In this document: piece after piece, positions 10,932-16,549 of the stretch
How the letters are laid out: every line of letters begins with the position of its first letter
Numbering within the stretch: position 1 is the stretch's first letter
Assembly (NCBI RefSeq): GCF_001422245.1
Contig: NZ_LMMM01000016.1
Location: 257,945-321,944, forward strand
DNA length: 64,000 nt
From: Rhizobium sp. Leaf262
GTDB taxonomy: Bacteria > Pseudomonadota > Alphaproteobacteria > Rhizobiales > Rhizobiaceae
Direction of reading: 5' to 3'
Made by a program: the position numbers and the translations under genes
The notes under the pieces: generated by a model
What the model was told of the DNA's origin: nothing
Database searches by the model: none
Seen by the model: the letters and a program-made list of their open reading frames with translations, nothing else

Positions 10932-12716
10932 TTGAAAACCGCCAAGAACCGGCACCCCGTTGATACCGACACAATCACGTCCGTGCTGAAGCGCATTTTT
11001 GCCGAAAACGCCCGCGATCATATTCCCGGTTATGGTTTTGCGATTTTCTGCCTGCTGACGGTCGCCGGCACCACGGCGTTTACGGCCTGGATCATGGATT
11101 CCGTCATCAACGAGGCGTTCGTCAACCGACGCGCCGATCTTGTCTGGCTGATCTGCTTTTCCATTTTCGTCGCCTTCTTTATTCGCGGGCTTGCCACTTA
11201 CGGACAATCGGTGGCGCTCTCGAAAATAGGCAACAATATCGTTGCGCGATATCAGAAGCGTTTGTACTCGCATCTCATGACCCTGTCGGTGGGTTATCTC
11301 AGCGAATCTCGCTCCGCGCATCTGGCAGCACAGGTCAGCCAGAACATCGGCGGCATTCGCGATGTCATGAACCTGACCGTGACGACGGTTGCCCGCGATC
11401 TACTGACCTTTATCGCGCTGGTTGCGGTGATGATCGTCAAGGACCCGATCCTGTCGATCGTCATCGTCTTCATCGTTCCACCATTGGTTCTGGGACTGCG
11501 CTATATTTCCAAGCGGCTTCGCAGCGCCACGCGGGATGCGGTGATCCTCAACAGCCGCGTGCTGGGCGCCATGCAGGAAACATTGCAGGGTATCGCCATC
11601 GTCAAAGCCTTCACGATGGAAAAGCAGCTGGAACATCGCGTCGATCGCGTCATCGATTCCGCTGAAATGCGCGCAAACCGCATTGCACGTCTAACGGAAA
11701 AGAGCGCGCCGCTGACGGAAACCATTGCCGGCCTGGCCGTATCGGGCGTTCTGGCCTACGCCGCCTATCGCGCCATCTATTACAATGTGCCTCCAGGTGC
11801 ATTCTTCGCCTTCGTGACCGCGCTTCTGCTCGCTTATGATCCGGCCCGCCGTCTTGCACGCGTGCAGATTTCTCTGGAACGCGCGGTCGTCAATGCGCAG
11901 ATGATCTACGACATTCTCGATATGGAGCCGATCCAGCGTCAGAAACCGGATGCAAAGCCGCTGGCGATCACCAATGCCACGGTCGAACTGCGGGACGTGG
12001 TGTTTTCCTACAAGGATGGCGGCCCGATCCTGAAAGGCGTCAGCTTTATCGCCGAAGGCGGCAAGACGACGGCGCTGGTGGGTCCGTCCGGGGCGGGTAA
12101 GTCGACGATCATCAATCTCGTGCCGCGTTTCTACGATCCGGACGGCGGCGCCATTCTGGTCGATGGTCAAAACATCGCGGATGTGACGACCATGTCGCTT
12201 CGCCAGAATTTGGCCTACGTCTCGCAGCAGCCCTATCTGTTCGAAGGCACCATTCGCGACAACATTCGCTATGGCCGCCCGGACGCGACGGATGCCGAGA
12301 TCGAAGAGGCCGCACGACTTGCCTTTGCGCATGATTTCATCGTCGCGCAGCCGGAGGGCTACGACACTGCGGTGGGAGAAAACGGCATGAGCCTGTCTGG
12401 CGGCCAGCGCCAGCGCCTGTCGATTGCGCGTGCACTGGTGCGCAACGCGCCGATCCTGCTGCTCGATGAAGCGACGTCCGCACTCGATACGGAATCGGAA
12501 GCCGTTGTTCAGAAGGCGCTCGATACGGCTATGAACGGACGCACTGTCATCGTCATCGCCCACCGCCTGTCGACGGTGGTCAAAGCCGACAAGATCGTGG
12601 TCATGAACGAGGGGCTGGTCGTAGAAGAAGGCGTTCACGAGACGCTTGCGCGGCAAGACGATGGTCTTTACGCTCGCCTCAACAATCTTCAGGCCACGGG
12701 TGTCCGTGGCCTTTGA
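10932..12716 (+). CDS. MsbA-like ABC exporter half-transporter (TTG start)
   Basis: The 594-residue protein fuses a six-helix ABC transporter membrane domain (about 30-320) to an ATPase domain. The ATPase carries Walker A GPSGAGKST (about 383), signature LSGGQRQR (about 487) and Walker B ILLLDEATSALD (about 505). It belongs to the lipid A/multidrug exporter branch (MsbA-like) and should work as a homodimer; the substrate cannot be read from the sequence. The start is TTG at 10932, chosen because AAGGTGG lies seven bases upstream and no ATG fits. The order glk - exporter - dapB - gpmA recurs in rhizobia as far as I know. Confidence 0.88.
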   Translation: MKTAKNRHPVDTDTITSVLKRIFAENARDHIPGYGFAIFCLLTVAGTTAFTAWIMDSVINEAFVNRRADLVWLICFSIFVAFFIRGLATYGQSVALSKIGNNIVARYQKRLYSHLMTLSVGYLSESRSAHLAAQVSQNIGGIRDVMNLTVTTVARDLLTFIALVAVMIVKDPILSIVIVFIVPPLVLGLRYISKRLRSATRDAVILNSRVLGAMQETLQGIAIVKAFTMEKQLEHRVDRVIDSAEMRANRIARLTEKSAPLTETIAGLAVSGVLAYAAYRAIYYNVPPGAFFAFVTALLLAYDPARRLARVQISLERAVVNAQMIYDILDMEPIQRQKPDAKPLAITNATVELRDVVFSYKDGGPILKGVSFIAEGGKTTALVGPSGAGKSTIINLVPRFYDPDGGAILVDGQNIADVTTMSLRQNLAYVSQQPYLFEGTIRDNIRYGRPDATDAEIEEAARLAFAHDFIVAQPEGYDTAVGENGMSLSGGQRQRLSIARALVRNAPILLLDEATSALDTESEAVVQKALDTAMNGRTVIVIAHRLSTVVKADKIVVMNEGLVVEEGVHETLARQDDGLYARLNNLQATGVRGL

Positions 12717-12740
12717 ACCCGATAGCATGAGCGAGGAAGC

Positions 12741-13568
12741 ATGAGCGGCGATGGCATGAAACTGGTGGTGGTGGGTGCGGCCGGTCGTATGGGGCAGACA
12801 CTGATCCGGCTGATCCATGAAACGCCGGGTGTCCAGCTTCATGCAGCAGTCGAGCGCGAAGGCTCTCCCTTTATCGGCCGTGATGCGGGTGAACTGTCGG
12901 GCCTCGGTCCTATCGGCATTGCTGTCACAAGTGACGCGCTCGACGCCTTCTTGCATGCACAAGGTGTCATCGACTTCACCTCGCCTGCGGGAAGCGTTGG
13001 CTTTGCTGGCCTTGCGGCTCAGGCGCGGATCGTCCATGTCATCGGTACCACCGGCTGCACGCTTGACGACGAGGCAAAGTTTCAGGCCGCCGCTCGCCAT
13101 GCCCGCATCGTTAAGTCAGGCAATATGAGCCTTGGCGTCAATCTGCTCGGCGTCTTGACGCAGCAGGCGGCAAAGGCGCTCGATGCGAATGCCTGGGACA
13201 TCGAAATCCTCGAAATGCACCACAAGCACAAGGTCGACGCGCCGTCCGGCACTGCTTTGCTGTTAGGCCAGGCAGCAGCAAAAGGGCGCGGTATCGACCT
13301 TGCGGCCAAATCCGTACGTGTGCGTGATGGACATACAGGCCCGCGCGAAGGCGGCACGATCGGTTTTGCGACGCTGCGCGGCGGCTCCGTGATCGGCGAC
13401 CATTCGGTGATTTTCGCTGGCGAAGGCGAGCAGGTCACGCTTTCGCACCATGCCGCAGACCGGACCATTTTTGCCCGTGGCGCAATTGCTGCCGCCCTTT
13501 GGGCGCACGACCAGAAGCCCGGCTTTTATTCGATGCTGGACGTTCTCGGTCTGGCTGAAGACCACTAA
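12741..13568 (+). CDS. dapB: 4-hydroxy-tetrahydrodipicolinate reductase
   Basis: This 275-residue enzyme of lysine/diaminopimelate synthesis reduces hydroxy-tetrahydrodipicolinate with NAD(P)H. The N-terminal Rossmann motif reads [10 protein letters not shown] (residues 9-18). The catalytic/substrate signature [15 protein letters not shown] (about 157-171) contains the conserved HH and Lys. The ending is complete ([10 protein letters not shown]). It begins 24 bases after the exporter gene and is followed after 23 bases by gpmA. Together with dapD and dapE near 27 kb it covers three of the succinylase-pathway steps within this window. Confidence 0.97.
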
Positions 13569-13591
13569 CCAACCTCTGGAGAGACATTGAT

Positions 13592-14227
13592 ATGAGCGGA
13601 ACCCTCGTCCTCGTTCGTCACGGCCAAAGTGACTGGAACCTCAAGAACCTCTTCACCGGCTGGCGCGACCCCGACCTGACGGAGCTTGGTGTTCAGGAAG
13701 CCAATGCCGGTGGCAAGGCGCTTGCCGATTACGGCATCAAGTTCGATGTGGCATACACATCGTCGCTGATCCGTGCCCAGCGCACATGCCAAATGGTGCT
13801 GGACAATGTCGGTCAGTCCGATCTGGAGACGATCCGTGATGAAGCGCTGAACGAGCGAGATTACGGCGATCTCTCCGGCTTGAACAAGGATGATGCGAGG
13901 GAAAAGTGGGGCGAGGAGCAGGTTCATATCTGGCGCCGCTCCTACGACATTCCACCGCCAGGCGGTGAAAGCCTGCGCGACACCGGCGCGCGCGTCTGGC
14001 CCTATTATCTGACGGAAATCCTGCCCCGTGTTTTAAAAGGTGAAACGGTTCTCGTGGCAGCGCACGGCAACTCGCTTCGCTCTCTCGTCATGGTTCTCGA
14101 CAAGCTGAGCAAAGAAGAAATCTTGAAGCTCAATCTCGCGACCGGCGTCCCTATGGTCTACAAGCTGAACGCAGATTCGACCGTTGCATCCAAGGAAGTA
14201 CTGGGCGACATGTCTGCCGCTCATTAA
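13592..14227 (+). CDS. gpmA: 2,3-bisphosphoglycerate-dependent phosphoglycerate mutase
   Basis: The 211-residue phosphoglycerate mutase interconverts 3- and 2-phosphoglycerate. The histidine-phosphatase motif [10 protein letters not shown] (residues 6-15, phospho-His 9), [11 protein letters not shown] and the second catalytic His in [10 protein letters not shown] are all present. It is shorter than the E. coli protein (about 250) but typical of the alphaproteobacterial form. It ends the mgsA-glk-exporter-dapB-gpmA run, directly before a strong terminator. Confidence 0.96.
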
Positions 14228-14239
14228 GTTGTTCAACAA

Positions 14240-14281
14240 AAAAAGCAGGCTTAGAGATGATATTCTCTAAGCCTGCTTTTT
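14240..14281. terminator. Bidirectional Rho-independent terminator (gpmA / 32-aa gene)
   Basis: An 18-bp perfect stem (left arm 14240-14257, right arm 14264-14281; core GCAGGCTTAGAGA) has a six-base loop and runs of T on both strands: five on plus and seven on minus. It lies 12 bases after the gpmA stop and 26 bases beyond the stop of the small minus-strand gene, so it can end both transcripts. Confidence 0.9.
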
Positions 14282-14307
14282 AGCGTATCAAGTATATTTT
14301 ATGACAC

Positions 14308-14406
14308 TCACCGAGAGCCGTGAGATTCGCCGAACCAATAGGCGCAAAATACGCTCGAGGCTGCGAAGACGGTGAAGAATAGCGCGACGAGAATTCCAAC
14401 TTCCAT
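14308..14406 (-). CDS. 32-residue single-pass membrane protein, unrecognised
   Basis: A short frame reads MEVGILVALFFTVFAASSVF (first 20 residues), then CAYWFGESHGSR and TGA. Residues 3-24 form one transmembrane helix with a short polar tail; the single Cys is at 21. The case for a real gene is a strong Shine-Dalgarno sequence (GGAAGGAG) ending 9 bases before the ATG, a fitting terminator just downstream, and isolation in a gap with no other use. I recognise no family: it does not resemble CydX or KdpF. It resembles the many small stress-linked membrane proteins only in size and shape. The function is unknown. Confidence 0.7.
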   Translation of the reverse strand: MEVGILVALFFTVFAASSVFCAYWFGESHGSR

Positions 14407-14693
14407 TGCCTTTACTCCTTCCATCCGTGAAGACTGTGAGGAGACAACGCGCAATTCTTGAAGAAGTTTCAATTCATGCCGGAATGCTGCTCAGGCAGGT
14501 CTCTGTCGCCAAACGTTTTCCATCCGCCGCAGCGGCATCGCAGCCAAGTTGAGCTGCCCTTCCCGGTACAACAAAGTCCAATTTTTTTCTGCCACATCAT
14601 CATTCCGTCATGCGCAGAGGCTAATTCGCCTCTACAGCCTTGCGTCGTTGAGGCGATTCATTTCAATAATGCCGTGACTGCCGATACCTGAAA
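14407..14693. other. Intergenic region between the 32-aa gene and the phn genes
   Basis: These 287 bases must contain the leftward promoter of the 32-aa gene and the rightward promoter of the DUF1045-phnM-phnN set. I see a GAAAC-N16-CGTT pair facing left, an inverted repeat TTGAA-N5-TTCAA at 14458-14472 and an AT-rich CAATAAT near 14665. No further ORF is credible. Confidence 0.5.
14446..14470 (-). promoter_or_regulatory. Candidate EcfG (general stress) promoter of the 32-aa gene
   Basis: On the minus strand GAAAC (14466-14470) is followed after exactly 16 bases by CGTT (14446-14449). The alphaproteobacterial general-stress sigma factor EcfG recognises GGAAC-N16/17-CGTT, so one base differs. 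Position relative to the gene (about 40 bases upstream of the ATG) is suitable. A single near-match can arise by chance. Confidence 0.3.
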
Positions 14694-15416
14694 GTGCGAC
14701 CCGTGCGCTACGCCATCTATTTCTCCCCTTCTCCCGATGATGCTCTTACCCGCAAGGCGTCTCGCTGGCTTGGTCGAAATGCCTTCACAGGCGCCGAAGA
14801 CCATAACGACGCTGACCAAAGGCACATGACGGCCGAGCCTCGCCGTTACGGATTTCATGCGACACTGAAAGCGCCTTTCGAACTGGCGGATCGTAGCAGC
14901 GAGGCTGAGCTTCTGACCGCTTTCCAGAATTTTGCGAGAACCCGACAAGCTTTCGAAATTCCTGAGATGATTATCGATAACCTTGGTCCCTTTTTTGCCA
15001 TCGTGCCCAAAGCGAAATCCGAAGCGCTGCAGGACTTCGCCGCAGATGTGGTCGCGTATTTCGAGCCCTTCCGGGCAGTCCTTTCGCCAAGCGATATTGC
15101 AAGAAGAAGGCCGCAGGAACTCAGCGAAAGCCAGCGGCGCAATCTTTCACAATGGGGTTATCCGCACGTCATGGACGATTTTCGTTTTCACATGACACTG
15201 ACAGGTCCTGTTGAGACAAAGGATCGTGACCGTGTCCGCGCCCTGCTGATGAGGGAATTTTCGGACTTTACGGAGCGATCTCTGGCCATCTCCGGTCTTG
15301 GCCTTTTTGTCGAGAGGGCGCGTGGAGAGGCGTTTACCGTTCACACATGGCTGCCGCTTGCGGAAGCGCCTGACACGCTCAGGACCACACCCGTCGAGAA
15401 AGAGGCAATCCGATGA
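14694..15416 (+). CDS. DUF1045 / phosphonate-operon protein with 2H phosphoesterase motifs
   Basis: The 240-residue protein belongs to the family often found in phn operons (annotated putative phosphonate metabolism protein). Two H-x-T motifs of the 2H phosphoesterase superfamily are visible: HATLKAPF at His 55 and HMTLTGP at His 166. That suggests hydrolysis of a cyclic phosphate, which I infer could be 5-phosphoribosyl 1,2-cyclic phosphate, normally opened by PhnP in the C-P lyase pathway. The start is GTG at 14694. Its stop overlaps the phnM ATG by four bases, so the two are coupled. Confidence 0.8.
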   Translation: MRPVRYAIYFSPSPDDALTRKASRWLGRNAFTGAEDHNDADQRHMTAEPRRYGFHATLKAPFELADRSSEAELLTAFQNFARTRQAFEIPEMIIDNLGPFFAIVPKAKSEALQDFAADVVAYFEPFRAVLSPSDIARRRPQELSESQRRNLSQWGYPHVMDDFRFHMTLTGPVETKDRDRVRALLMREFSDFTERSLAISGLGLFVERARGEAFTVHTWLPLAEAPDTLRTTPVEKEAIR

Positions 15417-16549
15417 CCGAACAGGTTTTAACCCATGCACGCATCGTTCTCCAGGATGAGATCATCGAGGGGTCGGTCCAGATCAAGGATGGCCTGATTG
15501 CCGATATCAGTGAGGGAACGTCACGCCTAGGTGAGAATTTCGAGGGGGATTACCTTATCGCTGGTCTGGTCGAGTTGCACACCGACCATCTGGAACAGCA
15601 TTATTCTCCACGTCCCGGCGTGACATGGAACAAGGTGGCCGCCATTCAGGCGCATGATGCGCAGATCTCGTCTTCAGGCATTACCACCGTGTTCGATTGT
15701 CTCCGGCTGGGTTCGGACGAAGATGGCGGCTTTGCACGCGGCGAAATGCGCCAGATGGCCGACGCCATCGAACAGGCCCAAAGGGAGGGTCGCCTGCGTG
15801 CGGATCATCTTTTGCATCTTCGCTGCGAAGTGGCTTCTGCGGATGTCCTTGAGCACTTCGAAGATTTCGAGGACGACGCCCAGGTAAAACTGATTTCGCT
15901 GATGGATCATTCGCCGGGTCAAAGGCAGTTTCAGACGATGGATCAATATATCGTCTTTTATCAGAAGAAGCGCGGCTTGAGCGACGAGGCCTTCCAGGCT
16001 TTTGTGGATCGACGTGTGGCGGCTTCCGCCAAATATTCCACCAACCACCGCGATTATCTCTCGGCGCAATGTCTGGCACGCGGCATCACCATCGCGAGCC
16101 ATGACGACGCGACGCAGAGCCATGTCGAAGAAGCGATCGGTCATGGCGTCAAACTTGCCGAATTTCCAACCAGCGTCGAAGCTGCACAGGCATCGCATGG
16201 TGCAGGCATGAGCGTCTTGATGGGCGCTCCCAACATCGTGCGCGGTAAATCACACTCCGGTAACATTGCTGCCCGTGATCTGGCTGAAATCGGTGTTCTC
16301 GATGTCCTGTCGTCCGACTACGTGCCGTTCAGCCTGCTTTATGCTCCGTTTCTTCTGGCCGATCAGGTTGAAGGCATAACGCTGCCCGCAGCCATATCGA
16401 TGGTCACGGCCACACCGGCACGCACAGTTGGCCTGATGGATCGCGGGCGGATTGCAAACGGTTTGCGAGCCGATCTCGTCCGAGTCCGTCGCAACAACGA
16501 CGTTCCGGTTGTCCGATCGGTCTGGCGGCAAGGCAGGCGCGTCGCATGA
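15413..16549 (+). CDS. phnM: Alpha-D-ribose 1-methylphosphonate 5-triphosphate diphosphatase
   Basis: PhnM is a 378-residue amidohydrolase that removes pyrophosphate from ribosyl-phosphonate triphosphate before C-P bond cleavage. The metal-binding motif LVELHTDHLEQHYSPRPGV lies near residues 51-69, with later metal ligands in the ITIASHDDATQSHV segment (about 225) and the SSDYVPFSL region (about 303). Length matches the family. It overlaps its neighbours by ATGA junctions on both sides. The core genes phnGHIJKL are not in this window. Confidence 0.94.
   Translation: MTEQVLTHARIVLQDEIIEGSVQIKDGLIADISEGTSRLGENFEGDYLIAGLVELHTDHLEQHYSPRPGVTWNKVAAIQAHDAQISSSGITTVFDCLRLGSDEDGGFARGEMRQMADAIEQAQREGRLRADHLLHLRCEVASADVLEHFEDFEDDAQVKLISLMDHSPGQRQFQTMDQYIVFYQKKRGLSDEAFQAFVDRRVAASAKYSTNHRDYLSAQCLARGITIASHDDATQSHVEEAIGHGVKLAEFPTSVEAAQASHGAGMSVLMGAPNIVRGKSHSGNIAARDLAEIGVLDVLSSDYVPFSLLYAPFLLADQVEGITLPAAISMVTATPARTVGLMDRGRIANGLRADLVRVRRNNDVPVVRSVWRQGRRVA

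Follow-up and report, generated by a model that had tools for sequence, protein, structure and literature searches.

In the 64,000-nucleotide stretch of Rhizobium sp. Leaf262 DNA analysed here (the window), the interval between gpmA, for a 2,3-bisphosphoglycerate-dependent phosphoglycerate mutase (13592–14227, plus strand), and the gene for a DUF1045 or putative phosphonate metabolism protein (TIGR03223; 14694–15416, plus strand) holds a minus-strand open reading frame that specifies only 32 residues, convergent with the first neighbour and divergent from the second. The DUF1045 gene is followed on the plus strand by a phnM-like amidohydrolase gene (15413–16549; Pfam Amidohydro_1), which we take to be phnM. 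A gene as small as this one is easily missed, and the locus raises the question of whether the frame is a gene at all and, if so, what drives it and why it lies where it does. The reading that we favour, with a probability of roughly three in four, is that the frame is a genuine gene for a small protein and belongs to the alphaproteobacterial general stress response, driven by EcfG, with its product in the inner membrane.

The small gene and its predicted product

The frame occupies 14308–14406 of the minus strand, from an ATG at 14404–14406 to a stop codon included at 14308–14310, and its translation is MEVGILVALFFTVFAASSVFCAYWFGESHGSR (32 aa). A Shine-Dalgarno sequence, AAGGAG, stands at 14415–14420 on the same strand, 8 nt before the ATG, as a preliminary description of this DNA had recognised; its AGGAG is invariant in an alignment of the 10 genomes that share the gpmA context, and among 45 homologs a single one (L038) has no recognisable Shine-Dalgarno. 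The same description had proposed one clear transmembrane helix, and this too is borne out: the protein has a single hydrophobic stretch, with a best 19-residue Kyte-Doolittle mean of 2.38 (1.84–2.84 across all 45 homologs), and AlphaFold, given this sequence alone, predicts one helix spanning residues 2–30 with a mean pLDDT of 90. A single-pass membrane protein is thus predicted, presumably located in the inner membrane. With E up to 1 allowed, neither Pfam nor NCBIfam gave a family for the window protein, and Pfam gave none for two of its homologs; the small gene had no match in a plasmid collection. Small single-pass proteins of bacterial membranes, of which CydX is an example, likewise have about 30 residues, one helix, and their own promoter and ribosome site, although in Pfam and NCBIfam no sequence relation to them was found at the same threshold.

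Between the stop codons of the convergent gpmA and small gene lies an inverted repeat (14240–14281) that we predict to be an intrinsic terminator acting on both strands, in keeping with the terminator that had been proposed just downstream. Its arms (14240–14257 and 14264–14281; 18 nt each, 100% complementary) form a perfect 18-bp stem around a 6-nt loop, with a fold z-score of −8.3. The repeat came from a separate repeat search and is absent from the output of the terminator scan, probably because the run of T residues is part of the stem.

Conservation and selection

In a single-sequence search of 61 genomes, the small gene was found in all 37 genomes of the genus and in none of 24 genomes of other families. 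The first 28 codons of these 37 copies gave 33 distinct sequences, for which pooled pairwise substitution counts yielded pS 0.551 and pN 0.110, that is, dS of about 1.0, dN of about 0.12 and dN/dS of about 0.12. Four of the other five frames have pN/pS of 1.5–2.1; the fifth, a reverse frame, reaches 0.32, its third positions coinciding with those of the real frame, and is interrupted by stops in 26 of the 33 sequences. The conservation at the protein level, with predominantly synonymous substitution, for which the preliminary description had asked is therefore present, and on this comparison of sequences the frame is a real gene under purifying selection as a protein. Open frames of such size are common (69 are listed as overlapping 12500–16500), but a frame open by chance is scarcely credible in view of the conservation in 37 of 37 genomes, and the dN/dS of 0.12 over 33 distinct sequences rules it out. 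The most divergent version within the genus (L051 in G014, from 1491) has 50% identity and, at 44 aa, a longer C-terminal tail.

Beyond the genus the distribution is narrow. A profile built from 18 homologs, run against 394 family genomes, reached E 0.01 in 20, comprising eight of the genus, eight that are convincing in four other genera (G077; G261, G315 and G428; G383; G166, G345 and G385) and four (G152, G180, G289 and G442; E 0.0018–0.008) that we dropped as chance; three of these sit in open frames of at least 270 residues, and that of G152 aligns over 12 positions only. Of 18 matches in another search, eight weak ones (G079, G095, G132, G157, G243, G255, G274 and G327; E 0.018–0.089) were likewise dropped as chance. 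A DNA pattern scan added four named records, from three strains of Agrobacterium vitis and from Allorhizobium sonneratiae; the scan may omit records near the window's own genome and its pattern was narrow, so that it is uninformative on distribution. Among the papers listed in our literature search none dealt with this small gene, and none of those searched combined 'small open reading frame' with phnI and phnJ; 'phn' is absent from the main text of a study of the S. meliloti small proteome (PMC10117765).

Two genomic contexts

Ten of the 37 genomes of the genus, the window's among them, have the small gene between gpmA and the DUF1045 gene. In the other 27 (27 of 27 checked) it is flanked by phnI and phnJ of the C-P lyase operon and runs antisense in the space that separates them, a context wider than the preliminary description had envisaged and one found in most of the genus. 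The same arrangement occurs in G315, G077, G345, G385 and G383 and in the four named records. The genes of the phn C-P lyase operon (phnI, phnJ, DUF1045 and phnM) are thus recurrent neighbours of the small gene, from which it differs in lying on the opposite strand, in having its own candidate promoter and in being kept where phnI and phnJ are missing. In the genera g71 (G261, G428) and g131 (G166) it stands beside the DUF1045 gene with no phnI or phnJ within the approximately 3 kb fetched, which makes three genera with members that keep the gene in a locus lacking both. Since these three genera show both contexts, the gene would have stayed put while its context changed at least three times, unless it was moved horizontally. 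Comparison of the loci indicates that in the window and its nine relatives the small gene has outlasted phnI and phnJ, the flank there having diverged.

Nine of the 10 genomes with the gpmA context have a distant PhnJ on another contig, 82–84% identical to the G006 protein, and the tenth (G020) gave no PhnJ match. In the window's own genome this second phnI-phnJ pair (L064, G000:C1:154000–163000), with a PhnJ about 83% identical to that of relatives in which phnI and phnJ flank the gene, has a tight junction without the small gene, which rules out a second copy there. The pattern suggests that the original C-P lyase core of this genome may have been replaced by another copy. One genus member carries, beside its normal PhnJ, a second and very divergent one (53% identity; G024:C24:4705–5523).

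Where the small gene lies between phnI and phnJ, its stop is 0–11 nt from that of phnI in 31 of 32 loci, and in the remaining one, L051, the frame reaches 32 nt into the end of phnI. Such spacing leaves no room for a terminator, so transcripts should run antisense into phnI and interference with C-P lyase expression is possible, which brings up the explanation that the antisense transcript is the key product and that transcription against phnI, or polymerase on the start of phnJ, damps C-P lyase expression. We regard this as quite unlikely to be the principal function: strong purifying selection acts on the encoded protein, and both gene and promoter persist in loci from which phnI and phnJ are absent, so that an antisense effect could be a side effect but not the only role.

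Other antisense frames at the phnI-phnJ junction

A survey of 70 phnI-phnJ junctions (the 30 top scorers among 279 genomes with PhnJ, and 40 chosen partly from gene-bearing genera and partly for spread) was not a random sample, so that its proportions do not estimate frequencies within the family. In 43 of the 70 the junction is tight, with 11–41 nt between the stop of phnI and the conserved core of PhnJ. The small gene of the window kind (class 1) occupies seven, and 13 hold a different antisense frame for a small membrane protein (class 2) that combines a helix with a Gly-Asp-rich tail and is apparently unrelated to the window's gene; five have other or unmeasurable gaps without such a frame and one piece was too short. 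The class-2 loci are L140, L142, L143 and L146–L148 (g95), L150 and L157 (g71), L162 and L163 (g127), L178 (g122), L183 (g28) and L197 (g111), and in g95 their substitution is of the coding type (dN/dS 0.33, six sequences). In the one junction left, L188 (G311, g64), a third antisense helix frame, without the Gly-Asp tail, lies in a gap of 277 nt.

Two of the four class-2 frames tried match the Pfam family of YxzE-like putative bacteriocins, at 29.5 and 38.0 bits, below the 40-bit cut-off. Together with the size and hydrophobicity of the 32-residue protein, these matches to unrelated frames could speak for a toxic hydrophobic peptide, akin to type I toxins or to bacteriocins. We consider this very unlikely: the small gene is single copy in its own genome (one match) and present throughout the genus, the class-1 proteins tried gave no family match, and no Rfam family was found in the 64-kb window at the gathering threshold.

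The upstream motif

The candidate EcfG-type promoter is TGAAAC-N16-CGTT at 14446–14471 on the minus strand, with its −35 element at 14466–14471 and its −10 element at 14446–14449; we place the start of transcription 9 nt after CGTT, at 14437, on the model of the SMc01509 promoter of S. meliloti (PMC6180224). Within a single genome the motif is at chance level and would mean little without comparison between genomes. The window has one GRAAC-N16-CGTT against 0.96 expected, and its own genome has 11 matches to TGAAAC-N16-CGTT (7 for a control read backwards) and 109 to GGAAC-N16/17-CGTT (131 for the control), which amounts to no overall enrichment over that control. It rises above chance because it is kept between genomes. 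When the 120 nt upstream of 45 homologs were examined at spacings of 8 to 25, with shuffled upstream regions as control, the exact GRAAC-N16-CGTT was present in 42 homologs from four genera (g1, g42, g127 and g131), all 37 of the genus among them, at a spacing of 16 and at none of the others, as against 36 of 45,000 shuffled regions (0.08%). The three deviating homologs all belong to g71 and read GGAAC-N16-TGTT (L036), GGAAC-N16-CATT (L084) and GCAAC-N17-CATT (L037). None of the 13 class-2 gaps contains an EcfG-like motif.

Much of this conservation could have another origin, since the block overlaps the start codons of PhnJ wherever phnJ is adjacent, and conservation there could be coding. 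Even in the window, six plus-strand codons reading I-L-E-E-V-S (14454–14471), with no PhnJ following, match the PhnJ start of relatives (M-L-K/E-E-V-S) and coincide with the −35 element and most of the spacer. The block might then be only the antisense of the first PhnJ codons, inherited with the position in the operon, and no promoter; 27 of the 37 genus genomes do have the gene between phnI and phnJ. The 10 genomes of the gpmA context, from whose locus phnJ is absent, speak most directly to this. Every column of TGAAAC and CGTT is invariant there (10 of 10), whereas invariant columns number 5 of 16 in the spacer, which held the start codon, 0 of 40 upstream and 0 of 5 at fourfold sites of the frame, and the mean majority is 0.46 over the 40 upstream bases as against 0.93 in the promoter block. 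The selection that maintains the hexamers here must concern something other than PhnJ. Moreover, other genera keep GRAAC-N16-CGTT despite differing PhnJ residues (EVS, DVS, EVP or NVP), and the 43 tight junctions of the survey have no room for such an extension. The 10 genomes rule out that a coding relic of PhnJ accounts entirely for the conserved block, and the explanation as such is most improbable; the EcfG-like promoter reading is, on these alignments, well supported.

Which sigma factor

The window motif shares the −35 and −10 letters and the 16-nt spacing of the EcfG (ECF15) promoters of rhizobia, from which it is set apart in overlapping, in many relatives, an antisense protein-coding start. 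It differs by one base from the consensus printed for R. etli EcfG1, GGAAC-N16-CGTT (PMC3892343), in line with the one-base departure from the EcfG consensus that the preliminary description had stated, and all 37 genus members have GAAAC in place of GGAAC. The GAAAC variant is identical to that of the S. meliloti SMc01509 promoter, printed in PMC6180224 as GAAAC-N16-CGTT (spacings of the promoters printed there were counted in this analysis), with values of 4.5 with RpoE2 and 2.9 with RpoE6; the rpoE5 promoter printed there, GGAAC-N16-CATT, has 4.8 with RpoE2 and 5.9 with RpoE5 itself. Each of the two variants is thus represented among promoters responsive to the stress sigma factor.

The response of SMc01509 to RpoE6 in those data, and the uniform GAAAC of the genus, make it possible that the promoter is real but served by another ECF sigma factor than EcfG. 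This we consider unlikely. The response of SMc01509 to RpoE2 is the larger in PMC6180224, where the ECF26 group consensus is quoted as GGAATA/GT and fits worse, and GGAAC itself appears in homologs of g71 (L036, L084) and, as a perfect GGAAC-N16-CGTT, in one distant homolog of g127 (L082, G383). Of the NepR/EcfG switch, the gene for NepR was sought and is found in the window's own genome (PF18557 at G000:C18:387052, 58.5 bits, over the cut-off), and two GGAAC-N16-CGTT sites lie within 3.1 kb around it. The stress promoter first proposed for this locus is accordingly supported at the level of sequence by the exact motif at its fixed spacing in four genera, with variants one base away in a fifth, the perfect GGAAC homolog, the SMc01509 variant and NepR.

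Discussion

We infer EcfG as the sigma factor, as well as the transcript, its translation and the membrane location, and the resulting scheme would run as follows. Under stress, EcfG would be freed from the anti-sigma factor NepR, and EcfG-RNA polymerase would start near 14437 from TGAAAC-N16-CGTT to give a monocistronic mRNA of about 200 nt, ending at the predicted terminator at 14240–14281. Translation from the strong ribosome site would yield the 32-residue protein, with one helix in the inner membrane, where, in stress or stationary phase, it would probably join a larger membrane protein as a small subunit with an accessory or regulatory role. That last role is a guess, possibly right but on balance doubtful. 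Taken as a whole, the sequences represent a new family of small proteins, controlled by what is very probably a promoter of known type, and what is unusual about the small gene is its place and its persistence.

A broader and more speculative interpretation, itself unlikely, is that antisense genes for small membrane proteins, of two or more unrelated kinds, have repeatedly settled at the phnI-phnJ junction of the C-P lyase operon in this family. The stress-sigma promoter of the window kind, lying in the start of phnJ, would fire against phnI, so that one cassette would make a stress membrane peptide and shut off phosphonate catabolism, and it would have been kept for the peptide after phnI and phnJ were lost from the locus.

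With the small gene, the probable general stress response of Agrobacterium-like bacteria (the genus being our assignment) would gain a new family of very small membrane proteins, and the promoter prediction is precise enough for a test by one reporter fusion. The two genomic contexts of the gene amount to a clean natural experiment, separating the conservation of a promoter from that of an overlapping coding sequence. If the antisense reading were true, it would also link stress signalling with the use of phosphonates.
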